A DNA stretch of 42,069 nt from Balneolales bacterium. GTDB taxonomy: Bacteria > Bacteroidota > Rhodothermia > Balneolales > Cyclonatronaceae. The translations under genes were made by a program, and so were the position numbers. Below the pieces are notes generated by a model, which searched no databases, had not been told where the DNA came from, and saw nothing but the letters and a program-made list of their open reading frames with translations. The stretch's first letter is position 1; each line of letters starts with the position of its first letter. The stretch is taken from NCBI GenBank assembly GCA_020832405.1, contig JAFIET010000025.1, positions 1-42,069 of the forward strand, written 5' to 3'. Shown here one piece after another: positions 6,573 to 24,982 of this stretch.

Positions 6573-9500
6573 TTAGAGTTCGAAATCGAAGAGCAGGCCA
6601 AAGTTAATGAGCACTTCGCCGCCGAATCGGACGGTTTCGCGCTGATCGGCGCTCACGAAGCCTTCAGGTACACGCAGATCGAAGGGGCTGAGGCCGTAGG
6701 CGCCGCTGATGAAAAAGCGGCTCGGGAACAGGTAGAACGACTGAATGTTGACCCGCAGCTCGGCGCCGATGCCGGTTTTGAGGTTGTCGCCGATATCGAG
6801 GGGGCCGCCCCAGCCGTTGCCGGTTTCCGCAAAGAAGCGGGCGAAGACCTTATCGAGGGTGAAGGCGCCCCGCTGCCGGTTGATGTTGGTGAACAGCGGC
6901 TGCATTACCGAGAGCTGCGCGAAGGCCGTGCGGTTGCCGCCCAGTGCGAAGAAGGGGTAGCTGCGCATGCCGTCGAAGCCGCCGATGTAATCGAGGAAAA
7001 AGTACTCGTCGGGGTTGTCGAAATAGGTGAACATGCGGGTGCGCAGCTGCATTACGCGGCTGAACGGACCCAGGAAGCCATAGCGGGCGTCGAGCTCGAC
7101 GGAGTGGTTGCGGTAGGTGTTGTACACGGGGATGAGCGTGCCGTCGCGGATTTCGTAGCGGTCGAGCAGGCGGCCCGGCTGATAGTTGTAGCGGATGTGC
7201 CCGCGGAAGCCGATCGGGGAGATGTCGCCGTGCCGCCAGGGCAGGTAGGCATCGACCACGTAGGCCGCGGTGAGGGTGTTACCGATGAAGTAACGCGCCG
7301 TGGAGCCGGGCACGAAGTCGTTGAATTCGTTCGAGAAAAACGACTGTGTTGACACGCGGTAGGGCGTGTGGTGCCAGCCCAGCTGCACCAGGCTGAAGCG
7401 GTTGAGCTTGCTGTACAGGTTGATTTCCGCCTGCCAGATGTCGTAGGCGATGTCGATGGCGGTGGTATCGGGCAGACAGGCGGTGCAGGGGAATTCTTCG
7501 ATTTCGAGACCGTTTTTGACGTTGCGGCGCAAATTGTACAGCCCGATTTCGACCGTGGGCGACCAGTGTCGCTCTATGAAGGGCAGGCCGGTGTATTCGG
7601 CGATGAGGAAGAGGTCGCGGTCGAGATCGACAAGCCGGCCGGGACGAAAGAAATCATTCACGGTTTCTGCATCGCGGGAGGCAGGCCCTACGAGCAGCCC
7701 GCCGAACAGGGAGAGGCGGTCGAGCATTTCCCGCGAGCTCATGTAGAAGCCCAGTTTTGTATCGCGGAGGATGTTGCGGCCCAGATCGCCGAAATTGCCG
7801 GCTTTTACGAGGGAGCTGTTGCGGCCGAATTCCTGCGAGTAGTTGTCGAAGCGGATGGTTGGCAGAAAGCTGAATGAGATGAAGGTGTCTTCGTACGAAA
7901 TGAACTCGCGGGTGTCGGGCTGACCGCGGGTTTCGAGTTCAAATACGTGCGGGTCGCGCCTCACCTGCTGGTACTGCTCCTCTGAAAAAGGCTCGAGGTC
8001 GGTGTCGCTGAAGGTGTTGAGCGGGCTGAGATTGCGTACGCGCGGCTGCGGTCCGAAAGCGGGGCGTTCGGCCAGCCGGTGGCTCGCGTTGTGTGCGAGC
8101 AGGGTTTCGACATCTGCGCGGCGGATTTTGTAGCCGGTGGAGGTAAACTCGGAGTAGAGCAGCGCGCCGGCTTCGTTTACATGTGGCATGAAGGCTCCGC
8201 CGATGACGTCGGTGAGCTGAACGAGCGGACCCCCGTTTTCGAGATCGAAGCGGTAGATGTCGAATTTATGGTTGAAGTCCGCGGCAAGGTAGAGGTGGCG
8301 GCCGTCGGGGCTCACGAAGGGATCGCGGAAATCGGTGCCGGGCTGCTGCAGCACAACTTCGTGCGTGCCGGGATTTTGCGGGTCGAAGCTCACGATGTAG
8401 CGGCCCCGCTGATGATCGCCTTTGGCGGTAAAAATGCGGCTGCCGTCGGGCGACCAGGCCGGGTTGAAGAGCTGTTCGCTTTGGGCGAAGCTGCTGAGCG
8501 TGGTGATATCGCCGGTTTTGGGATGGACGGTGACCAGGTTCAGGCTGCCGTCGGTGAGCTGAAGCGCGGCGATGCGGCTGCCGTCGGGCGACCATGCGGG
8601 TTCGTGCAGGCGGGCGTCGCGGGTGAGCTGCGTGCGGCGCCTCGTTTCGGTGTCGAGCAGGTAGATGTCGCCGTAGGTTTCGCCAAAGCGGTTCTGCTCG
8701 ATGAAGCTGTACGCAACCTGCGCGCCGTCGGGCGAGAAACTGTAGCCGCTGCTGATGCGGCTGATGAGCGGCCGGGAGTACATGCCGCAGCTGTGCCGGA
8801 AAGCGCCGCCCTGCGGGTCGGCCGTTGCGCGGCCGGGACCCGCAAGCTCGCGGGTGTTCCCGTTTTCATCGAGAACGACCAGCGCGGTACGGGCAAAGTC
8901 GAAGAACTGATTGCTGAGGAAGGCAACGCGTCCGTCGGGGGTGAAGGCAGGCTGCATGTTGATGAAGCCGAGATCGTAAACCGGCTCGGCGGGGCTTACG
9001 CGGATGTTGGCCGCGAAGTCGGTGTAGGCGGTGCGCAGGCTGTCAACCCAGCTTTGGTAGAGCTCTTCGCCGGGTATGCCGGTTGCGCGGCGCATGGCGT
9101 TGCGGATGTCGCGGCTGTTTTGGAGCTCTCGGGTGATGTCGGCGATTACCTGCTCGCCGAATCGGTCGGCCAGGTGCTGCGTGAAGGCAAAGCCCTGATT
9201 GTACGAAAGTTCGCGCTCCATGCTGTTTTTGGAGGCAAAATGACCTTTTTCGACCAGCCCCAGCTCGGTGCCGTCGAGAACGCGCGTGCGCAGCATCATA
9301 TCGCGGTGGCTGTCCCAGTAGTCGTAGAGCAGGTCGTTGGTCATGAACTGCGCGGTGCCTTCGGCAAACCAGGCCGGCACGTTAACGGTCGAAACCGGAA
9401 AGCTGATGATGCCTGAGGGGTAGCCGTAGAGCACATCGGGGCGGCGCACGTTTTCGTAGGAGAGCCACTGCAGGTAGGTGATCGGCCGGGTGCGGGTGCC

Positions 9501-9956
9501 CCGCATGGAGGCCTGAATCTGCACGATGTGCACAAATTCGTGCGTGATTACGTTCCGGAGCCAGTTGTTGCTGCCGCGGAACGGCGTATCGAGGGAGGGG
9601 AGCCAGATCTCAATCTTGTTGTCGAAAAAATATGCGGCCCCGTTCGAGTAGTCTTCCCGGTCGATGAGTACGATGCTCAGCGGGATGTCGGGCTCGTAGT
9701 CGTAGAGGGTGGTGATTTCGGTCCAGACTTCTTCCGCAATGCGGGAAATGACCCGTGCCGGCCGGTCGTTGCCTTCCTGAAAGTGCACCAGAAAATGATC
9801 GCTGCGGATGGTGTACCAGTCCAGGTGGTTGTGCGGGTAGGTCAGAAAAGCGGGCCGCTGCTGCGCCTGAAGGCTGTTAAGAGCACCCATCCCCAAAAAC
9901 AGAATGAGCAGGCTCAGCAGGATGGGAGTTGAAAAAAGGGTGAGGGATCGGTTCAT
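6573..9956 (-). CDS. Gluzincin-like protease domain + PD40 propeller + predicted outer-membrane barrel
   Basis: A 1127-residue exported protein (signal peptide about 1-31). Residues 130-260 carry THEFVHIVQIQ (H139-E140-x-x-H143) and, 56 residues later, WFAEGTAQF with E199, the zinc-ligand spacing of gluzincin peptidases such as the peptidase MA group. Residues about 330-620 contain five PD40/TolB-like repeats (SPDGAQVAY, WSPDGSRIAAL, WSPDGSRIFTA, SPDGRHLYLA and an early TPDGRVAFL). From about 700 to the end the sequence is rich in alternating aromatic strands, with GGFDGMRSYPFFALGGNRTAFAQL and a C-terminal FGLLFDFEL, like the BamA/surface-antigen barrel family. All zinc ligands are kept, so activity is plausible. 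It starts 30 nt after the M6-like gene stop. Such proteins are often annotated only as Tol-like. Confidence 0.8.
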   Translation of the reverse strand: MNRSLTLFSTPILLSLLILFLGMGALNSLQAQQRPAFLTYPHNHLDWYTIRSDHFLVHFQEGNDRPARVISRIAEEVWTEITTLYDYEPDIPLSIVLIDREDYSNGAAYFFDNKIEIWLPSLDTPFRGSNNWLRNVITHEFVHIVQIQASMRGTRTRPITYLQWLSYENVRRPDVLYGYPSGIISFPVSTVNVPAWFAEGTAQFMTNDLLYDYWDSHRDMMLRTRVLDGTELGLVEKGHFASKNSMERELSYNQGFAFTQHLADRFGEQVIADITRELQNSRDIRNAMRRATGIPGEELYQSWVDSLRTAYTDFAANIRVSPAEPVYDLGFINMQPAFTPDGRVAFLSNQFFDFARTALVVLDENGNTRELAGPGRATADPQGGAFRHSCGMYSRPLISRISSGYSFSPDGAQVAYSFIEQNRFGETYGDIYLLDTETRRRTQLTRDARLHEPAWSPDGSRIAALQLTDGSLNLVTVHPKTGDITTLSSFAQSEQLFNPAWSPDGSRIFTAKGDHQRGRYIVSFDPQNPGTHEVVLQQPGTDFRDPFVSPDGRHLYLAADFNHKFDIYRFDLENGGPLVQLTDVIGGAFMPHVNEAGALLYSEFTSTGYKIRRADVETLLAHNASHRLAERPAFGPQPRVRNLSPLNTFSDTDLEPFSEEQYQQVRRDPHVFELETRGQPDTREFISYEDTFISFSFLPTIRFDNYSQEFGRNSSLVKAGNFGDLGRNILRDTKLGFYMSSREMLDRLSLFGGLLVGPASRDAETVNDFFRPGRLVDLDRDLFLIAEYTGLPFIERHWSPTVEIGLYNLRRNVKNGLEIEEFPCTACLPDTTAIDIAYDIWQAEINLYSKLNRFSLVQLGWHHTPYRVSTQSFFSNEFNDFVPGSTARYFIGNTLTAAYVVDAYLPWRHGDISPIGFRGHIRYNYQPGRLLDRYEIRDGTLIPVYNTYRNHSVELDARYGFLGPFSRVMQLRTRMFTYFDNPDEYFFLDYIGGFDGMRSYPFFALGGNRTAFAQLSVMQPLFTNINRQRGAFTLDKVFARFFAETGNGWGGPLDIGDNLKTGIGAELRVNIQSFYLFPSRFFISGAYGLSPFDLRVPEGFVSADQRETVRFGGEVLINFGLLFDFEL

Positions 9957-9986: not shown

Positions 9987-12900
9987 CTAACGAATCACGG
10001 CGATACGGATGAGCTTGGTTTCTTCGCGTCCCTCGGCGGAGGCGCGTACGCGGGCGTAGTAGGCGCCGCTGCTCCAGCCGGAGGTGTCGATACGGATTTC
10101 TTCCGGGGTGCCGCCGCGTGCGCGCAAACGCTGCTCGAACAGGCGGGTACCGCTCATGCTGAGAACGGTGATGGTGATGTCGGCCTCCGTTTCAGTCTGA
10201 TAGCGGATCCAGGTTTCGCTGCCTGCCGGGTTGGGCCAGTTGTAGGTTTCGGAGCTGTTGAGCAGGCCGAATGCCGGGGCTGAGATGCCCGTTTCAGGCT
10301 GCGGCCCGCTTACTTTATTTTCAGGATTGTTGCCGTACACCGAGCGCCAGAAAATTTCACCTATGCCCTCAAGCTGCCAGATTTTGAGGTCGCCGCCGGG
10401 GCCGAGCGCGTAGAGCCGGTCGCCGGAAAGCAGCGGCTGAAGCGGGCGCTTGAGGTCATCTTCCGAAAGGGATCCCACATAAAGGGGGAAGCCGTCAATG
10501 GGCCGGAGTTCATTATCGAAGCCGTGAATGAGGTAGGAGAGGCTGTCGGCGGCAGGCACGAGCAGGTCGGGGCGGCCGTCGCCGGTGAGGTCCGCTACAA
10601 TGGGCGTGCCCAAAAACTGCTGACCGCGCGGGGCTTCGAGGGGGAAGTTCCAGAGGTAGGCGCCGTTGGTATTGCGGGCTTCGAGGCGGTTTTGCACGAA
10701 ATCAACAAAAAGAAAATCGAGAGAGCCGTCCTGATCGAAATCGACCAGAGCCGGCCAGCTCACGCCGGGCCAGAGTTCGGTTTCGGCAATCACCACATCA
10801 TCGCGCTCTTCAGCGGCAATCAGCCGCAGACCGGTTTGGGTGATGAGCAGCGGCTGAGGTGCCGCATCTTCAGAAACCTGCACCATGCTTGCATACCGCC
10901 GGGTAAAAAAGGGCTCGCGGCGCAGGTCGCGGGTGATGCGTCCGTCGCTCGTGCGCAGTATTTCGTTTTCGATGATGGCTTTGAAGCCGATAGAGACGCT
11001 TTCCTGATAGCCGCCCTCTGTAAGCTGCAGGCTGCCGTCGGCCGCTGTGAGCCGTACGGGCGTTGTGTCGAGATCTATGAGCTGACCCTGCTGTATGCCC
11101 GAGGGCTTTCCTCCGGCAACTTCGGGTAAGGGCGTTTCCCAGCTTGCGGAAAACTGCCCCTGCTCATAGCGGAAAAAGCGGGCCGTGAAGCCGCTGTCGC
11201 CTTCCGACACCAAAAGCACTGCGTTTTGAGCGGCAGAGGCTGTGGTTTGGCTGTACAACGGCATTACGGTGCCGGGGGCTATTTCTGAGCGTTCAGAAAG
11301 GTTGATGCCGTCTTCTTCGCTGATCGGGAGAACGCTCACCGAAATATCGTCAGGGATGAGGAGGAACGCCTGCTCGTTGGGCGGCTCAAAAAGCGTGAGT
11401 GCACGCGGCCATGAGTAGTGCCTGCCGTCGAAAAGGCCGGTGCTTTTGCCGAGGTTTCCTTCAAACAGCAGGGTGATGTTTTCGGGTGATGCGCGCCTTG
11501 CCCTGAACGATGCGGTGGGCAGATTACCGGAGAAATCGTAAAATTCGAAAAAGGAAGGGCTGCCGGTATTGCTGCGGTTGTTGGGGAAGGTGTCGTCGCC
11601 GAAGCGGTTCTCATAAATGATAATGCGTTGCCCGGAGGCGGTGATCACCGTAAAATCGTTGCCGCTCCACCAGAAGTCGAAGGGGCCGCCGCTCGAGAAG
11701 TTGCTCAGGCCGAATGCGGGGCGGCCGATATCCTGCGCGCCGTCGGCTTCCTGCAGGGCCACACCCCGCCTGTCGGGGTTGTTGTTGATAGCGTTGTTGG
11801 GCTTTTGGGCGCGGATCACGGCTTCATCGATGTGCCAGATGAGCATGCCGCCGTTGAGGAGGCGGTCGTCGTCGGTGCCGCTTTGCCCGTCCTGACCGAT
11901 ATCGAGGCCGCCGGGTACGGCCCAGTCGAAGTTGCTCACATTCACGAGCACGCCGGCCGGGAGGATTTCTTTGTACTTGCGCTGATCGTTGGGGCTGAAG
12001 CGTTCTTCCTCGTTGGTGAAATTCCGGGTTTCAAAACTGCCGTCGGGCAGGCGGAAGGTGAGCGCAACGCCGGTGCCGAAGGGGTCGCGGTGCCGGTTTT
12101 CAACCAGAAAATATTCGTCGGAGGAGATGCGGTGCCGGGCAATGCGCTGCGGCTGACCCAAAGAAACGGCTGGAAGCTCAAACGCGGTGCCGGCGCTGAG
12201 GCTGATGTCGAAGGGCGTATCCCATCCCATAAACTGACGTTCCCATGCAGAAGGCAGTGGCGGGATGAGGCCGTACCAGGCGAAGATGCCGGCGCCGTCC
12301 ATCAGGCCGAACTGCCCGATACCTGAGCGACCGGTTTCGGTGTCGAATAAATCCGGCAGCCCGATAAAACTGCCGATATTGGCCGCCAGAATGCCGTTGA
12401 TGGAGAGCTCGAGTACGAATTCTTCGCCGGTTACATCTTCGCCGCGGCGGCTTTGGGTTTGGGGAAGAATGGCCGAGTTGGTTACGCGAAGGCCGTCCTG
12501 CAGCGGAATGCCGCTGAAGTTTGGGCCTGCAGCCGAGGAGAGCCGTTCAATCGCCCGCTGATTCAGAAATACGGAGGGGATGTCCTGCGGCGTGTTGTCG
12601 AGTGTGGTGCCTGCAAGCTCGATGTCGCGGCCAGCGCCCGCGTGGAAAATCACGAACATGGTGCGGTCCTGCGGCAGGTGGCTCAGGTCGGGGAGGTTCG
12701 AGTTGGCGACGAGTGTCCAGGTGTCGTAGAAGAGGTCGCCGAGGCGGAAGTTTTGGCTGTCGTCGGGGCCGGTGGGCGAGTACTCGCGCATGGGTTTGCT
12801 GAGCCGGTACACCTGCGGGAGCACGGTGTATTCGATGTCGAGCTGCCCGCCCGAGGCCTGCTGAAAGTAGTTGCGGGCAAACTGAAGGTGTGCTTCAAAA

Positions 12901-13232
12901 TAGCCGCGGTCGTGCGGCAGCGGCCCGATGGTGATGTCGTCGCGCATCAGGTAGTCGAGCGCAAAGGTGCCGTTACCGGAGGTGAAGCGGTTTTCCTCAG
13001 GCTCAAACTCCACCATTACCGCGAGGATGTGAATGGTGCCTTCGCCAAGGTTTTGGGTTTGGCTTTGCGGGAAAGCATCCTGAAGGGCTGCTGCCTGTGC
13101 CTGAAAAGGCCGGAAGCGTTCGGCAAGCTCAGCCGCTGAAGGCAGCGTTTGTGCGGACAAACAGGGGGCTAAAAAAAACAGAAGAATACCCGCAAGGGAT
13201 ATTCTTCTGCCAAAGGTTGACTTCACAAACAT
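9987..13232 (-). CDS. M6-like pseudoprotease with type A T9SS sorting domain
   Basis: A 1081-residue secreted protein (signal peptide 1-27, cleavage near LSA). Residues 60-360 match the M6 (immune inhibitor A-like) peptidase fold, including IGLPDLFDTETG, GIGQFGLMDG and the PSAWERQFMGW end. The zinc motif expected as HExxH just before GLPDL reads A284-N285-I-G-S288, so both histidines and the catalytic glutamate are gone. Two FG-GAP-like calcium repeats follow (DFDQDGSLDFL near 830, DLTGDGRPDLL near 880). Residues about 998-1081 are a type A T9SS sorting domain (NWPNPAGSETWIRY to ARVRASAEGREETKLIRI). It is probably exported by T9SS as a surface binding or structural protein rather than an enzyme. 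Confidence 0.85.
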   Translation of the reverse strand: MFVKSTFGRRISLAGILLFFLAPCLSAQTLPSAAELAERFRPFQAQAAALQDAFPQSQTQNLGEGTIHILAVMVEFEPEENRFTSGNGTFALDYLMRDDITIGPLPHDRGYFEAHLQFARNYFQQASGGQLDIEYTVLPQVYRLSKPMREYSPTGPDDSQNFRLGDLFYDTWTLVANSNLPDLSHLPQDRTMFVIFHAGAGRDIELAGTTLDNTPQDIPSVFLNQRAIERLSSAAGPNFSGIPLQDGLRVTNSAILPQTQSRRGEDVTGEEFVLELSINGILAANIGSFIGLPDLFDTETGRSGIGQFGLMDGAGIFAWYGLIPPLPSAWERQFMGWDTPFDISLSAGTAFELPAVSLGQPQRIARHRISSDEYFLVENRHRDPFGTGVALTFRLPDGSFETRNFTNEEERFSPNDQRKYKEILPAGVLVNVSNFDWAVPGGLDIGQDGQSGTDDDRLLNGGMLIWHIDEAVIRAQKPNNAINNNPDRRGVALQEADGAQDIGRPAFGLSNFSSGGPFDFWWSGNDFTVITASGQRIIIYENRFGDDTFPNNRSNTGSPSFFEFYDFSGNLPTASFRARRASPENITLLFEGNLGKSTGLFDGRHYSWPRALTLFEPPNEQAFLLIPDDISVSVLPISEEDGINLSERSEIAPGTVMPLYSQTTASAAQNAVLLVSEGDSGFTARFFRYEQGQFSASWETPLPEVAGGKPSGIQQGQLIDLDTTPVRLTAADGSLQLTEGGYQESVSIGFKAIIENEILRTSDGRITRDLRREPFFTRRYASMVQVSEDAAPQPLLITQTGLRLIAAEERDDVVIAETELWPGVSWPALVDFDQDGSLDFLFVDFVQNRLEARNTNGAYLWNFPLEAPRGQQFLGTPIVADLTGDGRPDLLVPAADSLSYLIHGFDNELRPIDGFPLYVGSLSEDDLKRPLQPLLSGDRLYALGPGGDLKIWQLEGIGEIFWRSVYGNNPENKVSGPQPETGISAPAFGLLNSSETYNWPNPAGSETWIRYQTETEADITITVLSMSGTRLFEQRLRARGGTPEEIRIDTSGWSSGAYYARVRASAEGREETKLIRIAVIR

Positions 13233-13390: not shown

Positions 13391-14506
13391 TCAGAAATTA
13401 AGCAGTACCGACAATCGGATGGTGTTTGCCAGCGGATGGTCTTCCCGAATGGTGTAGAGGTAGCTGAAATCGACACCGAACATGTTGTAGCGCAGACCTG
13501 CCCCGAAAGTGATGAACTGACGGTCGCCGTTGTTGGGGGCTTCGTAGAAGTAGCCGGTACGGATGGCGAACTGCTGGTTGTACCAGTACTCAACACCTAC
13601 TGCGTACATGAACTGCTCAACGAGGGGTACTTCCACGAAATCCTGACCGTCGAAGCGGGTGTAGGTATCCCATGAGCGGAACAGGGCTTCACCAACGCCC
13701 ATGGCGCGGCCTGTGGTATCGTTACGCGCCATGATTTTGGATACGTCCCCGGCAAATGTGAGGGTGTTATACCCGTCGCTGTCGAGGGTGATATCGTAGG
13801 CGAATCCGGCACGAAGCAGGGTTGGCAGCGGATCGCGCTGCGCATCATCGGTGTACTGAATGGCAGGGCCGATGTTGGAAAGGTTCACACCGGCGCTGAA
13901 GCGGGAGGTGCGGTCGAACAAAACGAATTCGTTGCTGCGGTAAAGTGCGGCAACATCTACGCCGACACTCGTTCCGGCCTTGGCAGTCTGCCCGCCAACG
14001 TCGATGTTGGGTGTGAGGCGGCTGTAGATGAAGCGGAAACCGGTACCGATGGCCCAGTTTTGGTTCAGCCGGAAACCGTAGCTGAGGCCTGTTGCCAGCT
14101 CATAGCTCGAAAAGCTGCGCAGCTCACGGCCGATTTCATCGGTCTGAATTTGCTCGCCGAGGTTGAGATAGGTGATGTGCCCGCCTATGGTACCGATGCC
14201 TTCGATGTAGGTTTTGCCGACCAGATAGTTGTAGAAAAGGTCGGTGTTGAAATTCGGCAGCCAGTTGGCGTAGGTAAGGGCGATCTGAGTTTCCGGCTCC
14301 TGAAAGGCAAGACCGGCAGGATTCCAGAATACGGCTGAGGCATTATCGGCAATGGCAACGCCTGCGTTACCCATGCCCGGTGTGCGGGAGTCGGGTTCAA
14401 TTTGCATGAAAGGTACAGCTGTGATGCCTACCTGTGCGATCGAATGACCGGCGCCGGCTACCAGCAATACAAAAGCAGCAAAAAGAGAGGTTGAAATCTT
14501 CTTCAT
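13391..14506 (-). CDS. porV: T9SS outer-membrane shuttle/sortase partner PorV
   Basis: A 371-residue FadL-like outer-membrane barrel with a signal peptide (about 1-25). The mature N-terminus has FMQIEPDSRTPGMGNAGVAIADNASAVFWNPAGLA, the hallmark of the PorV/PorQ (UPF0164) family, and the last strand ends LRLSVLLNF. PorV carries T9SS cargo from the translocon to the sortase PorU and forms the PorU-PorV-PorQ-PorZ attachment complex. The gene is 139 nt downstream of porU on the same strand, the arrangement found in many T9SS genomes, which favours PorV over PorQ. The length fits PorV. Confidence 0.93.
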   Translation of the reverse strand: MKKISTSLFAAFVLLVAGAGHSIAQVGITAVPFMQIEPDSRTPGMGNAGVAIADNASAVFWNPAGLAFQEPETQIALTYANWLPNFNTDLFYNYLVGKTYIEGIGTIGGHITYLNLGEQIQTDEIGRELRSFSSYELATGLSYGFRLNQNWAIGTGFRFIYSRLTPNIDVGGQTAKAGTSVGVDVAALYRSNEFVLFDRTSRFSAGVNLSNIGPAIQYTDDAQRDPLPTLLRAGFAYDITLDSDGYNTLTFAGDVSKIMARNDTTGRAMGVGEALFRSWDTYTRFDGQDFVEVPLVEQFMYAVGVEYWYNQQFAIRTGYFYEAPNNGDRQFITFGAGLRYNMFGVDFSYLYTIREDHPLANTIRLSVLLNF

Positions 14507-14645: not shown

Positions 14646-17600
14646 CTAACGAATAATTACCAGACGCTCGATATGTTCTTGCGTTTGCCGGCCGTTCGGG
14701 CCGTCTGTTCTAACCCGTACATGGTAGAGGTAGGTGCCCGCTGCAAGACGGTTATTGTCGTCGTCGCGGCCGTTCCACTCAAACATTTCCAGGTTACCGT
14801 TGGCGATGCGGCTTTCCCTGATTTGTGCAACCGGCCTGCCGCTGAGCGTGTACACGCGGATGAAAACATCCAGCGGCTGACCCACTGCCTGATTGTGCTC
14901 GAAGGCAAAGCGTGTGAAGTTGTGCATCGGGTTGGGATAGTTGTACACATTGCGGATGGCGAGGTCATTGCCGCCGCTAACGTCAAAGAAAATTTCAGTT
15001 TCGCCCACATTGTTGAAAACGTCCCAGGCCCGCACGTACAGAGACCAGGAGCCGTCTTCGAGATTATCGAGCGGGTATTCGATGCGGCCGCGGGTGAAGT
15101 CGTCGAGGGCGCTTGCGTAAAACTCGTTGAGGATGAAGGTATGCTCCTGCTGCGGCCGGTCGAGGTTTCGGAGCGTGCCTATAATTTCATGGCCCACGCC
15201 GGCCCCTGTTGTATTTACGCCGCCTTCACTGAAAACATCTACCAATAAAACGGGGTCTCTGTTAACGAGGCTGCCGTTTGCGAAGCTATCGTCGTTGAGG
15301 TAGGCATCGAGCTGCGGCCCTTCAAAAGTGTTTTGTGCATCAGGGTTGATGCCGTTGAGGAAGAAATTGGAAAATGAGCCAACAGCATCCGAAATCCCGG
15401 GGTTGATGCCGTACACGTGAATTCGGGCGAGTGAGTCAGAGTAGGCGATGTCTTTGGGGATGATGAATTCCGTGCTGAACTGCCCGTTGGTGATGCTCAC
15501 CCGGCCGTTGAACAGGATGTCGTTTTGAACGCGGAAGCCGCAGTCGGTGAGCAGGTTACAGGTTACATCGGGGTTGGGAAGCAGTTCGAGGCGGGAGGCA
15601 TCAAATACGCGGAGGATGCCCTCACCGTTGAAGCCCGAATCGGCAGTGCCGCCAGTGCCAAGCACCTTGCCTTCAACCGTTACCCGGTCGAGGGAGCGCA
15701 GCTGAAGCGGCGGGTTGCTGCCACTAACCGGCAGCCCGTTGATGGCCGTGATCTGCATCTGCTGTTCCGGAAGCCCCATCGACATGGCCGGGTCGCCGAG
15801 CAGTACAAATTTCCTGTTATTGATGCTGTTGCGGTTGGCCGCTTCGTTGTTGGCAAGGATGAAGTTTTTGGTGCTGCGGTACACATCGCCTATGGTGCGG
15901 TTGCTGCCGTCGGGGTTGCGCATCACCATTTGGCGGGTAAGCTCGATGTGCAGCGCGAAATTGTTATCCTGACTCTCATTCGGGCTTGAGCTTGTAAATA
16001 CTACGCGGGAGGTTGTCATGGCAGCGACCGAGCCGCCGTTGTCGTGAAGCATGAGTTTTTCTGCCCCGGAAAAATCAACATTATCGTCGTAACGGCCGAA
16101 AGAGCAGGTTGCGGTAACCATAATCATGGGCCGGCTGCGGTTGGTAAGCCGCGGAATATCAGATGATTGAAAAAGGCGTTGCTGCGTGAGCACCTGTTCT
16201 GCCCCGTGACCCGAAAAATGCAGGGTGAGTGTTCCGGCATTGATCTGATTCACCAGTGCATTGGTACCCTGTGGTACCCGGCGGCCTGCCGGCGTATTTT
16301 CCAGCGGGAAGCTGAACTGATACAGCTTGCGTACCCGTATGCCGGTCGCGTCTTCATCAATGGCTTCAGCCACAAAATCCGCATTGTAGGTGTGCAGGTC
16401 GCGGTCGTTGTTGTTGCTGTTAAGGTTGTCATCGGCGGTGAAGGTAAACAGCGTGCGCCAGTCGCCGGCCTGATCAAGGCTTTCAAAAGCTTCAATTTTA
16501 TCGAGTATGATGTTTGCTTGCTGAGCCGTAACTACGGGTAGCCTGCCAATTTCGATATCGAGGCGGTTGTTACGGTCGCTTGCCAGCCAGGAGCCTTCAT
16601 CATCCCCCAGAAAACCAAAGAAATCATCGCTGCCGTAGGTGCCCGTACGGGAAAGGTTGTCGAGATCAACGTAGTGCTGAAAATTAAATACGAGATTCTC
16701 AACCGGAGAATCCTCAATGCCTTTGTAATCGAAAGTTGCGTTTCCGAACAGCATGAGGTAGCGGGGCATCAGGTCGTCGTTGAGGCCGGCGCGGTCGTAG
16801 AGGAATTTCATGAAGTCGCGGATGGCAACCGGGTCGGGAACACCGCCGCTGAATTCGTGGAAAATCTGGTTTTGGGTTACAATAAGCGGGCTCAGGCCAT
16901 TGCGGGACGCGCGGTAATCGGCCAGACGCTGTGCGGGCTCGAGCAGGCGTTCGTCGGTTACAATGATGTAATCGGGGAAGAAGTTGATGCCCCTCAGGTT
17001 TTGATTTTCAACAGCTGTGCCGGGTGCCGGGGTGTAAAACCGGGTTGCGGCAATAAGCTTGCGGCCCGCATTGTAGAAATAGCGCACCGACCAGTTGTTG
17101 CCGCTGCCCTCAGCGGGGATCAGCACCGGATTTACGGGGTTGGTTACATCCATCACCAGCGGTCGGGATGTGAAGCCGGTAAAGCTGTAACGGGCGAGCT
17201 GCGTAGTAGAGGTCGAAAGGTCAGGGGAAAAAAAATGGAGGATGCCGTTTTTTGGCGTCAGCAGCCGTTCTGCACGGATATTGATGAAATCAACCCAGCC
17301 CCTCGATTCCGGCGTATTGGTGAGGAAGCGCGCCCGGATCTCAAGCTGATTGTTGGTCAGGCTGATATTATTTAGCTGACGCACCACATTGGTTACGTTT
17401 GCCGCCCGCCCGGTTGAAGAACTCAAATCGTTAATCGGAGCAATGTTAACGGTTCCGAAAACGCTGTTGTCGTGGCTGAATTCAAAGGTCATGAGCGAGC
17501 GGGAGCGCCCGGCCATTCGGGCGTTAAATTCGATACTGCTGTTGGCAATGAAGCCGGGCAGCGTGTCGCGCACAATAACCTGATTGCTGAATTCCGGGGT

Positions 17601-18635
17601 GAAAAGCTGACCAAACCAAAGGGTGCCGGAGCGCTGCTGCGATTCGGGCATATAAAGCTCATCCTCAATAAAAATAAAATCACGGAAGCGGTCGATTTCC
17701 TGCGAAATACCACCCTGTGCCTGAAACGGGCTGAGCCGCATGCCGCGCTCATTGCCAACGGTCAGGTAAACGAAGTTTGTGGTGGCGAAGGCGTGCGTGT
17801 TGTGGCTCCAGCTGCGGGATGAGGGGTCGAAAATACGCTCATTTACTTCATTGCCATAAAAAATTACGGCATCGTTCGCACCAAAACTACCGTCGTTTTC
17901 GCCTTCTACAAGGATGGGAATCTGCGCGAAGCCCGGCCGCGGATCAGCGTTGGGCAGCGGGAGCTCAAAGCCGGGTGTGCCCCAAAGCTGTATGTTACGC
18001 GGATCGATGGCTTCGGTATTGATACCCAGCTCGCGAAGGTAGCTGCGGTCGAGCCGGTAAATGCCGTTACGTGAAACAGGAATCTGATACCAGGTGCCGG
18101 AGCTAAGCGGATGATTTCCCTCATTTTGGATGCGCTGCGACAGACGTTCGTAAGCAGCTACAGCCTGCGGGGTCCAGGTCTGATCGTTGTACACGCGTAC
18201 ACGCAGGCTGCGGGTTACGAGAAAATAATCGGGCTGTGCGGCATCCCGCCGGGCGAGGTTCAGCTGCAGCGCTGAGCGGTACTGTTTGCGGATCTCCCGG
18301 GGTGCAGAAGTCTGCGCGAGGGGCACACGGCTATTGGGTATCAGGGTGAAGATATCCTCTTCAGAGCCGTGCTGCGCTTCAGCAGAAGAAAGGCGCGGTG
18401 CACGTGTGCGCACAATATCCTGTTCAAGAATGCGGTAGCGGAACTCGCCGTCGCGATAGGGGATATCGAGAAAAGCGGGCGAAAAAACGCGCAGACTGTC
18501 GTTGGTGAAAGCATAATCCGTGAATTCGGATGTAGCCTGAATAACCTGCAAATGCTGGGCCTGAGCTGCATTTGCGGCTGTTAGCATCAAAAGAAACAGA
18601 CAGAATACGCGGAATATCAGATGCACGTGTTTCAA
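14646..18635 (-). CDS. porU: T9SS sortase PorU (C25 gingipain-family peptidase)
   Basis: A 1329-residue exported C25 peptidase (signal peptide about 1-27). The catalytic pair is visible: H810 in LHFSGHGAEQ and C844 in VTATCSFGRYDD, 34 residues apart as in gingipains. The C-terminus (about 1230-1329) holds NYPNPMHNFTRFAFEH and AAGTYLYHVRVRT, the T9SS-type domain kept in PorU proteins. PorU removes the sorting signal of T9SS cargo and attaches the cargo to the surface. The start appears to be TTG at 18635, which gives a proper positively charged signal peptide; no ATG lies in frame nearby. A TAGTTTTG element at 18701-18708 (minus) may be its -7 box. Confidence 0.94.
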   Translation of the reverse strand: MKHVHLIFRVFCLFLLMLTAANAAQAQHLQVIQATSEFTDYAFTNDSLRVFSPAFLDIPYRDGEFRYRILEQDIVRTRAPRLSSAEAQHGSEEDIFTLIPNSRVPLAQTSAPREIRKQYRSALQLNLARRDAAQPDYFLVTRSLRVRVYNDQTWTPQAVAAYERLSQRIQNEGNHPLSSGTWYQIPVSRNGIYRLDRSYLRELGINTEAIDPRNIQLWGTPGFELPLPNADPRPGFAQIPILVEGENDGSFGANDAVIFYGNEVNERIFDPSSRSWSHNTHAFATTNFVYLTVGNERGMRLSPFQAQGGISQEIDRFRDFIFIEDELYMPESQQRSGTLWFGQLFTPEFSNQVIVRDTLPGFIANSSIEFNARMAGRSRSLMTFEFSHDNSVFGTVNIAPINDLSSSTGRAANVTNVVRQLNNISLTNNQLEIRARFLTNTPESRGWVDFINIRAERLLTPKNGILHFFSPDLSTSTTQLARYSFTGFTSRPLVMDVTNPVNPVLIPAEGSGNNWSVRYFYNAGRKLIAATRFYTPAPGTAVENQNLRGINFFPDYIIVTDERLLEPAQRLADYRASRNGLSPLIVTQNQIFHEFSGGVPDPVAIRDFMKFLYDRAGLNDDLMPRYLMLFGNATFDYKGIEDSPVENLVFNFQHYVDLDNLSRTGTYGSDDFFGFLGDDEGSWLASDRNNRLDIEIGRLPVVTAQQANIILDKIEAFESLDQAGDWRTLFTFTADDNLNSNNNDRDLHTYNADFVAEAIDEDATGIRVRKLYQFSFPLENTPAGRRVPQGTNALVNQINAGTLTLHFSGHGAEQVLTQQRLFQSSDIPRLTNRSRPMIMVTATCSFGRYDDNVDFSGAEKLMLHDNGGSVAAMTTSRVVFTSSSPNESQDNNFALHIELTRQMVMRNPDGSNRTIGDVYRSTKNFILANNEAANRNSINNRKFVLLGDPAMSMGLPEQQMQITAINGLPVSGSNPPLQLRSLDRVTVEGKVLGTGGTADSGFNGEGILRVFDASRLELLPNPDVTCNLLTDCGFRVQNDILFNGRVSITNGQFSTEFIIPKDIAYSDSLARIHVYGINPGISDAVGSFSNFFLNGINPDAQNTFEGPQLDAYLNDDSFANGSLVNRDPVLLVDVFSEGGVNTTGAGVGHEIIGTLRNLDRPQQEHTFILNEFYASALDDFTRGRIEYPLDNLEDGSWSLYVRAWDVFNNVGETEIFFDVSGGNDLAIRNVYNYPNPMHNFTRFAFEHNQAVGQPLDVFIRVYTLSGRPVAQIRESRIANGNLEMFEWNGRDDDNNRLAAGTYLYHVRVRTDGPNGRQTQEHIERLVIIR

Positions 18636-22148: not shown

Positions 22149-23375
22149 TTAAAGGGTGCCGGCTTTGGAACGGGCCTGTTCGGCTTCTTCAAACATTTCG
22201 AGAGCGTCGTACACCTGAGCCATTGCAGCCCAGGTTTCGGCATCGTTCGGGCGCTGTTCGGTTACAAACTCGAGATAGGTAAGGCTTTGATAGAAGTGTT
22301 CCTCCAGCTGCTGCATCCGCTCGGTACCTGAAAGCCCGGGGTGCATGCTGTAAACCTCACGCAGCATAAAAGCCAGGTTCCGGTGGTACAGGCCGAAGGT
22401 TTTATTGGCGAGCAGATGATCCTGGTTCAGGGTATAGGCGGCATCAAGCTCGACCTCGGCACGGCTGAAGGTCTCCATAGCTGCACTGTAAAGCTCGCGG
22501 GCCTGCTCACTGCCTGCAGCACTGGCGAGTACCTCCTGAAGCTGAAGAAAACCTGTTTCGGCCAGTACGCGGCCGTAGGCAAGTTTGCTCTCAACGGTTT
22601 GGCCGTCTATGCGGCTGAGGCGTTCCAGGATTTCGGCGGCTTCGTCGCGGCGGTCAAGCTTCATCAGGCTGTTGGCCAGCCCCCGGCCGGAATTGATGAG
22701 GCCGGCACCGTCGTTCCAGGAGCGGCTGAGGAAGGGCAGTGCCTTCTCATAGTCACCGATTTGATAGTAAATGAAGCCGAGTGAGGCGATTTGCCGGGAT
22801 GAGGCAAAACCCCGGTCGTACATGCGCGAGAGTGTTGCAGCTGCGGCTTCGAGATGGTTCATTTCGTAATACAGCTCGAACAGGGTTTCGTATATGCGGT
22901 TATCATCAGGGGACAGCACGCGGCTGTTTTCCAGGTGTGCGATTGCGGCCCCTCTGTTTTCTTCATCGAGCGTTTCCGAAGAGTTAAGAATGGTTTGGGC
23001 ACCGTGATCTTCAACCTGTAAACGCTCATGGATGAGGTCGTTAATCCGGTTATTTACCGCTTCGAGCTCTTCATCGGATGCGGCATTCCGGGCATCCTCA
23101 AACGAGCGAACCATATCTGTGTAGAGTTGGAGCCGGTCTTTTGGTGAATAGTTTTGGGAGATTTCGGCTATAATTTCGGCCTTGAAAAGGTGAATCTCCG
23201 CATTGTTCGGATCATTTACTGCGGCCTGATTGGCTGCGCGGAGGGCTTCTGTGAGGTTATTTTCGGCCCGAAGAGCTTCAGCCCGCTCAAAATGAGAGGT
23301 TGAAGAACAGGCAAAAAGAAACCCGAAGGCTACCACAAGGGCAGTCATTCGGGTGAATGAGAAAGTGATATTCAC
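22149..23375 (-). CDS. TPR lipoprotein (second of a tandem pair)
   Basis: A 408-residue predicted lipoprotein: hydrophobic N-terminus ending in FLFAC with the lipobox cysteine at about residue 23, then helical TPR-like repeats throughout (for example AEALRAENNLTEALRAANQAAVNDPNNAEIH and the last repeat with YDALEMFEEAEQARSKAG). The start is GTG at 23375, which supplies the Arg before the hydrophobic stretch; ATG nine codons later is an alternative. It follows the similar gene at 23432-24757 by 56 nt, and both share the layout lipobox, TPR, then a segment with a conserved E-I-A/E motif, so they look like diverged duplicates. TPR lipoproteins usually act as scaffolds at the outer membrane; the partner is unknown. 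Confidence 0.8.
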   Translation of the reverse strand: MNITFSFTRMTALVVAFGFLFACSSTSHFERAEALRAENNLTEALRAANQAAVNDPNNAEIHLFKAEIIAEISQNYSPKDRLQLYTDMVRSFEDARNAASDEELEAVNNRINDLIHERLQVEDHGAQTILNSSETLDEENRGAAIAHLENSRVLSPDDNRIYETLFELYYEMNHLEAAAATLSRMYDRGFASSRQIASLGFIYYQIGDYEKALPFLSRSWNDGAGLINSGRGLANSLMKLDRRDEAAEILERLSRIDGQTVESKLAYGRVLAETGFLQLQEVLASAAGSEQARELYSAAMETFSRAEVELDAAYTLNQDHLLANKTFGLYHRNLAFMLREVYSMHPGLSGTERMQQLEEHFYQSLTYLEFVTEQRPNDAETWAAMAQVYDALEMFEEAEQARSKAGTL

Positions 23376-23431
23376 GTTAAGGGGTAAGTGAGTGTGAACA
23401 GAGGTAGTGTATAAACAAAAAAACGGATCAA

Positions 23432-24757
23432 TCAGAAACCTGCGCGTTCAGCAGCTCTTTCAGCGTCATCCTGCATACCGAGGCGGGTGTAGAGCTGGAA
23501 AAGCTTCATCCAGTTATCAACTTCTTCGGGTTCGAGTTCGGCAGTTTTTTCGTAGAAGGGAAGAGCAGCGCGGAAGTAATCCATGGCACGGCGTTCCATG
23601 TCGCTGAAATCCATACTGTCATCGAACAGGTTGTTGATCTGATCAACCAGTGCAAGACCGCGGTTTTCGTTGATCGCGCCCAGGGTGTAAGTAGTGTTCG
23701 GCTCGTTGGGTTCTAATTCAAAGGAGATCATCAGTTGCTCTTCGGCCCGGTCGGCAATGTCAAAACGCTGTAAGTCTAATTCACGGATCTTATCCTGAAC
23801 GGCATTAATCTGACCCTCAACTTCGCTAACGCGCTGCTGGTTCGGGCGGCTTTGGCGGGCGAGTTCACGGAACTGCTGGTTCAGGTCGAAAAGCTCATCA
23901 TAAAGGCCGGCTACTTCCTGAGTGAGGTTCAGATATTCCTGATAAATCTGTGAACCGAATACAAGGCGGTACTGTGCGTTGCTTTCATCACGGGCAATGA
24001 GATCTTCGAGAACCTGCATGGCCTTGTCGTTCTGACCGGTACGGAAGTAGATATTGGCCTGCTCCTGAACAAAGAAAATTTCGTCAGGGAAAACTTGTGC
24101 AGCCATTTCAAGCACTTCAAGGGTTCCTTCGTTGTTTTCCTGAAGCATGAAAAAATAGGTGAGGCGCTGATAGCGGGAGAGGTCAGCTTCATCAGCATGT
24201 TCAATGGCCTCACGCATGTATTTTGCAGCATTGTCGAGGTCGTCTGACATAAAATAGAGTTCGGCCAGAGCGTCGAGGTTCATAGTGCTGTCAGGCATTA
24301 CAGTGTGTGCATTGTACACATGCTGAATGGCAAGCTGAAGTACTTCTGGCGGGTTGTCGCCTTCAAAGTCGATGCCGCCGATTCCCTGGGAGTACTCATC
24401 ACGCCAGCGGTTCACCAGCAGCGGAATCGCAGTCTGCGCTTCGTTTGAGCTGATTTCCTGAGCACGGAAGAGTTCGTCGGCGCGGACCATGCTTTCACGG
24501 GCACTTTGAAGGGCGTCACGTCGCTGATCAACGGGCTGCTCTTCGGCAATTTCCAGCCATGCAGCTCCTTTGTAGTAAAATGCATCAGCATTTTCGGGAT
24601 TTTCTTCGAGGGCACGCTCGGCTGAGTCAAGAACGCCCTGGAAATCAGCGTTACGGAGGCTCAGTTTGGCAGACTCAATGTTGGGGTCGCTTGCGCAGGC
24701 AATAAGAATGGAGCCAAGAAGCGCGGCAACGACCATTAATTTCACGGAAACTTTCAT
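23432..24757 (-). CDS. TPR lipoprotein (first of a tandem pair)
   Basis: From ATG at 24757 the protein has 441 residues and starts MKVSVKLMVVAALLGSILIAC, a textbook lipoprotein signal with the lipobox cysteine at 21; a longer reading from 24931 only adds a non-signal leader. TPR repeats fill the protein, beginning AERALEENPENADAFYYKGAAW, with further repeats such as DSTMNLDALAELYFMSDDLDNAAKYM and ALPFYEKTAELEPEEVDNWMKLF near the end. A charged coiled-coil-like insert (about 280-320: ELARQSRPNQQRVSEVEGQI) interrupts the repeats. It is the promoter-proximal gene of the pair and is divergent from ridA. Function is unknown; outer-membrane scaffolding is inferred from the architecture. Confidence 0.85.
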   Translation of the reverse strand: MKVSVKLMVVAALLGSILIACASDPNIESAKLSLRNADFQGVLDSAERALEENPENADAFYYKGAAWLEIAEEQPVDQRRDALQSARESMVRADELFRAQEISSNEAQTAIPLLVNRWRDEYSQGIGGIDFEGDNPPEVLQLAIQHVYNAHTVMPDSTMNLDALAELYFMSDDLDNAAKYMREAIEHADEADLSRYQRLTYFFMLQENNEGTLEVLEMAAQVFPDEIFFVQEQANIYFRTGQNDKAMQVLEDLIARDESNAQYRLVFGSQIYQEYLNLTQEVAGLYDELFDLNQQFRELARQSRPNQQRVSEVEGQINAVQDKIRELDLQRFDIADRAEEQLMISFELEPNEPNTTYTLGAINENRGLALVDQINNLFDDSMDFSDMERRAMDYFRAALPFYEKTAELEPEEVDNWMKLFQLYTRLGMQDDAERAAERAGF

Positions 24758-24794
24758 AATTTGCAGTTTAAATATTTGAATAAAGTCAAATTTT

Positions 24795-24820
24795 GGTACG
24801 TCGTCGAAGATAAGCGTACC
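24795..24820. repeat. Inverted repeat GGTACG…CGTACC in a divergent promoter region
   Basis: GGTACG at 24795-24800 and CGTACC at 24815-24820 form a perfect 6-bp inverted repeat with a 14-nt spacer, between the divergent TPR lipoprotein and ridA genes. The form is that of a small operator, but no regulator is known. Confidence 0.35.
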
Positions 24821-24833
24821 ATTATCTTTAAGC

Positions 24834-24859
24834 AACAAGCGGAAGGGTTTCCGCTTGTT
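24834..24859. repeat. 11-bp perfect hairpin upstream of the TPR lipoprotein pair
   Basis: AACAAGCGGAA (24834-24844) pairs fully with TTCCGCTTGTT (24849-24859) around a 4-nt GGGT loop. It lacks a T-run in either direction, so it is not a standard terminator. It is 77 nt upstream of the lipoprotein start and 124 nt upstream of ridA. Confidence 0.65.
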
Positions 24860-24982
24860 TAGGCATAATTTGAGCTTGCGTGTACCACTTGACATCCTCC
24901 ATGGTTTGAACAGGATACAAATTGTTTTCAATTAACGCAGGCCACGCCTGTTTTCCTGCCATTTTAACTGATAAAAAAAATT

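Follow-up and report, generated by a model that had tools for sequence, protein, structure and literature searches.

The window, i.e. the whole stretch of 42,069 nucleotides that was analysed from a Balneolales genome, encodes a predicted T9SS-exported M6-like pseudopeptidase of 1081 amino acids (M6i, 9987..13232), and its gene was found to be co-inherited with a gluzincin gene located 30 bp downstream. The best reading of these data, which we favour with some reserve, is that M6i is a T9SS-exported, non-catalytic partner of an outer-membrane metalloprotease. What is new here is the pairing of M6i with the gluzincin; the family of dead proteases is already known. All features given below lie on the minus strand, and the window contained no tRNA and no Rfam match.

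The NCBIfam model NF052323 (T9SSA_dep_M6i, “T9SS-dependent M6-like inactivated metalloprotease”) covered M6i over profile positions 28-1043 of 1043 and scored 1079.6 bits (cut-off 600). The protein, which the original prediction had treated as an unusual case, thus belongs to a family that had already been curated, and the observation of a dead protease is already in NCBIfam. A signal peptide is present (by inspection only) and is followed by an M6-like N-terminal region together with a downstream domain (residues 60-600, 11433..13055), supported by the PDB matches of the predicted structure. Next comes a propeller-like beta region (residues 601-990, 10263..11432). Two FG-GAP-like repeats had been claimed for the protein; an FG-GAP-like profile does match residues 831-892, but the model shows residues about 600-990 as an all-beta, propeller-like region and not as a pair of isolated repeats. 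The T9SS type A C-terminal sorting domain (CTD; residues 997-1081, 9990..10244), described from the start as intact, was recognized by TIGR04183 with 26.1 bits (cut-off 23), and Y997, P1000, N1001, P1002, R1010, G1028, G1056, and Y1058 are conserved in the homologue alignment.

The degenerate zinc motif at 12369..12383 reads A284-N-I-G-S288 in place of HExxH and directly precedes F-I-GLPDLFD, as originally reported; coordinates and translation agree. Its register is unambiguous when CHEFGHMLGLPDMYD (L122) and AHEYGHIFGLPDLYD (L125) of active M6 proteins from the same phylum are set against AANIGSFIGLPDLFD of M6i, the substitutions being H to A, E to N, and H to S. The Gly (+7) and the Asp (+10) of HExxHxxGxxD are kept, as is the Met-turn FGLMDG, and these metzincin features (D294, M311, FGLMDG) occupy 12300..12353. 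Both histidines and the glutamate are therefore gone from a frame that is open over 1081 codons, as the original prediction stated, to which we add that the third-ligand residue D294 is retained. An alignment of orthologs had been proposed as a check, and the homologue set (101 distinct sequences, 100 of them spanning the zinc site) confirmed that the inactivated site is conserved: HExxH was found in 0 of the 100 homologues, with both His and the Glu lost in 100 of 100. The replacements are mostly small (A/G/S at the first His, S/N/Q/T at the Glu, S/N at the second His); the first-His position holds A in 93, G in 4, and S in 3 homologues, the Glu position S in 41, N in 30, Q in 18, T in 7, M in 3, and L in 1, and the second-His position S in 82, N in 16, R in 1, and G in 1. 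Around the lost site N279 and G280 are invariant, G291 is found in 99 and P293 in 100 of the 100 homologues, and D294, M311, and D312 are kept in 98, 96, and 100, respectively. M6i is thus very probably non-catalytic.

The Foldseek search with the full-length M6i model was swamped by propellers, those of PorZ, integrin alpha, and biofilm-matrix proteins among them, and the N-terminal domain was therefore modelled separately (AlphaFold2, residues 58-600, mean pLDDT 77, pTM 0.84). The best four PDB matches of this model were the immune inhibitor A2 zymogens 4yu6 and 4yu5 (E-values 7e-14 to 1.7e-13, probability 1.00, with a TM-score of only about 0.5, all on the model), and the matches that followed were much weaker. 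Neither the M6i sequence nor its profile retrieved anything in a sequence search of the PDB, and PF05547 weakly matched 3 of 44 M6i members. On the strength of the model matches, the motif register, and the weak PF05547 matches, the N-terminal domain is assigned a predicted M6 fold, and the claim that the rest of this fold is intact, for which structure prediction with a Foldseek search had been the suggested check, agrees with the M6 zymogens as top matches.

The partner gene (6573..9956) encodes a protein of 1127 amino acids, which profiles and alignments divide into a gluzincin domain (Peptidase_MA_2), a PD40 propeller related to TolB, and a putative Omp85-like barrel; we found no model in Pfam or NCBIfam that spans the whole protein. 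Its HExxH is intact (H139-E-F-V-H143, 9528..9542) and invariant in 85 of 85 aligned sequences, and the downstream Glu ligand E199 (WFAEG) is invariant in a 25-row alignment. The Omp85 profile PF01103 matched 2 of 25 partner members at the C-terminal part (best 3.6e-8), and the window protein itself gave no match. Both the barrel and the catalytic competence of the partner are predictions from sequence. Immediately upstream of M6i lies porV, encoding the outer-membrane T9SS shuttle (13391..14506; NF033710, 293 bits, cut-off 250), and next to it the gene of the sortase PorU (14646..18635; NF033707, 949.6 bits, cut-off 420). Nearly all loci preserve the order porU, porV, M6i, gluzincin, DUF5683, in the Balneolales and the Rhodothermia as well as in more remote families of the phylum. 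The placement of M6i two genes from porU was confirmed in the window by the profile matches; its proximity to porU is nevertheless misleading, since M6i tracks the gluzincin and porV rather than porU. In G064, G128, G135, G165, G173, G176, and G213 the gluzincin gene is not at the porV locus but has been retained along with M6i. Upstream of the T9SS genes the window also encodes two neighbouring proteins with TPR-like matches (22149-24931), relatives of which stay close to porV in Balneolaceae that are devoid of PorU.

Among the 198 genomes of the phylum set, M6i and the gluzincin were both present in 77 and both missing in 121 with no discordant genome, the M6i count comprising 73 members above the cut-off and 4 divergent members. 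For the 165 genomes of the class the numbers were 116 with both, 48 with neither, and one discordant genome (G027), in which only the gluzincin was found, at a contig end where M6i would start. Over the respective cut-offs PorV was detected in 140, PorU in 135, and PorZ in 124 of the 198 genomes, and DUF5683, the family of the other neighbour, which served as a control, occurred in 160 of 198 regardless of the M6i state. Both genes have been kept in 7 genomes from three families despite lying far apart or on separate contigs; G055 has neither of them between porV and the DUF5683 gene, and its genus (g20) includes 5 genomes that carry the two genes and 7 that carry neither. On the PorV tree 7 independent changes were seen, only 5 of them well supported, and all were concordant (sign test, p 0.0625). 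The co-occurrence is clumped by phylogeny, and one deletion can remove both adjacent genes, which weakens co-occurrence as support. M6i and the gluzincin are nonetheless likely to be a functional pair. The libraries and papers searched contained no pairing of M6i with an Omp85-like gluzincin, and literature searches on PorU2/PorV2, T9SS pseudoproteases, the T9SS of Balneolota, and Omp85 metalloproteases turned up nothing on the M6i family.

Several other explanations for M6i were considered. The loss of the catalytic residues could mark a decaying gene, the probability of which we regard as negligible because the frame of about 1,000 codons is open in most carriers, the identical site has been lost across classes, and dN/dS is well below 1. 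Between the genome of the window (G000) and G005 (76% identical) dN/dS was 0.076 for residues 60-580, 0.020 for residues 270-320 around the site, and 0.220 for the propeller, with the dS of this pair near saturation; in three closer pairs the N-terminal domain gave 0.044-0.147. The propeller is the fastest evolving part of M6i and the dead M6-like domain the most constrained. The maintained non-catalytic role that had been proposed is strongly supported by this purifying selection on the domain and by the inactivated site common to several classes. Catalysis by a rearranged site, composed of D294 and other near-invariant residues such as H197, D217, D312, or E378, is very improbable, as the His pair and the general base of the motif are lost in every member, no second HExxH is conserved among the homologues, and D294 and M311 are common to active M6 members too. 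Dead protease copies often act as inhibitors or decoys, and M6i might accordingly inhibit a catalytic M6 protease or trap foreign proteases; some carriers do hold active M6 proteins, but TIGR03296 was over its cut-off in only 5 of the 18 genomes searched while M6i is kept almost everywhere as a single copy, and we consider this explanation quite improbable. An active M6 sibling as a target, and with it that part of the earlier suggestion of inhibition, is unlikely, since TIGR03296 found no M6 protein but M6i in G000. Other predicted metalloproteases with an intact HExxH and without GLPDLYD were seen at L127, L128, L129, L145, L146, and L149, as weak TIGR03296 matches in the same genomes. Finally, M6i might be an adhesin or a component of the matrix, with the M6 fold and the FG-GAP propeller turned into a binding surface, which would fit the surface export signal and the integrin alpha and biofilm-matrix propellers among the fold hits. 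Any propeller would yield such hits, however, the conserved part is the dead peptidase domain and not the propeller, and the link with a protease gene is left unexplained, all of which makes an adhesin improbable.

The position of M6i, directly after porV and close to porU in nearly all carriers, points to a further explanation. The attachment complex of P. gingivalis consists of PorU, PorV, PorQ, and PorZ (PMC8545088), and M6i could be an accessory of this complex that acts on cargo with PorV, PorU, and PorZ as a PorZ-like surface factor, its propeller-like region and CTD resembling PorZ, which the fold search with the full-length model had also recovered. We regard this as unlikely. Five Balneolaceae genomes (G028, G036, G044, G047, and G058) have neither PorU nor PorZ over the cut-off and have kept PorV, the N-terminal domain of Sov (SprA), the gluzincin, and M6i, whereas many genomes with PorU and PorZ are without M6i. 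Because M6i persists in these Balneolaceae it is probably not a part of the sortase complex, and the main rival to our reading is instead a PorV-centred role of M6i without a sortase. NF052228 (PorZ) was absent among the profile matches of M6i; replacement of PorZ by M6i was dropped as an idea, PorZ being encoded elsewhere in the genome of the window (G000:C146). The five genomes encode 7 to 32 proteins with a type A CTD, as compared with 37 to 97 in nine PorU-bearing relatives. As an observation in its own right, these genomes and G055 (loci L152-L156, L120, and L121) represent Balneolaceae with Sov and PorV, with PorU and PorZ not over the cut-off, and with far fewer type A CTD proteins, and such apparently sortase-less T9SS are found in this family on two or more distinct branches of the PorV tree. 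In G181, G224, and G228 (L176, L177) of the same class PorU and PorZ were likewise not over the cut-off and PorV was kept, while M6i and the gluzincin were lacking.

As a non-catalytic partner of an outer-membrane metalloprotease, M6i would cross the inner membrane by means of its signal peptide and, as the type A CTD and the adjoining porV suggest, the outer membrane through the T9SS. Its domain, without the catalytic-zinc residues, would retain the fold and the conserved former active-site region and would work together with the metalloprotease encoded downstream; that the two touch physically, and in which sense one affects the other, is conjectural. M6i would most likely hold or present polypeptides, or switch the partner protease on or off; that it is specifically a substrate-binding or regulatory subunit is a tentative proposal. 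With similar caution we suggest an undescribed two-part proteolytic module of the outer membrane, in which an Omp85-anchored gluzincin with a TolB-like propeller has a T9SS-exported pseudopeptidase as its obligate substrate-binding or regulatory subunit; the module would be conserved in several Bacteroidota classes and would not depend on the T9SS sortase. The N-terminal domain of Omp85-type proteins is normally periplasmic and M6i should end up on the surface, hence the topology of the pair is uncertain, and an encounter of the two proteins may be confined to their transit unless the partner domain is exposed. The pairing would give the M6i family, to which no role had been assigned, a specific partner that can be tested genetically. 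Its importance would lie in a pseudopeptidase and an outer-membrane protease that share their inheritance over much of the Bacteroidota, sit in a T9SS locus, and outlast the loss of the sortase.

Compared with known systems, M6i does not differ in kind from the NF052323 family, the match spanning the full length far above the cut-off, and the family name itself states the loss of protease activity that was observed for M6i at the outset. With the M6 peptidases (immune inhibitor A, TIGR03296, PF05547) it shares the predicted fold, GLPDLxD, the Met-turn, and the register of the site, but these peptidases carry HExxH and M6i does not, and the general M6 model TIGR03296 scored only 49.7 bits on M6i, below its cut-off of 110.8. 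PorZ and M6i both have a propeller-like region and a CTD and are linked to the T9SS; PorZ, however, is without an M6 domain, is encoded here by a separate gene, and is outlasted by M6i where PorU and PorZ are lost. The partner resembles the PlpD-like proteins, i.e. proteins of the Omp85 type that export a passenger at their N-terminus, in combining an enzymatic N-terminal part with a putative Omp85-like barrel, but where the PlpD-like proteins carry a patatin the partner carries a gluzincin and a TolB-like propeller instead.
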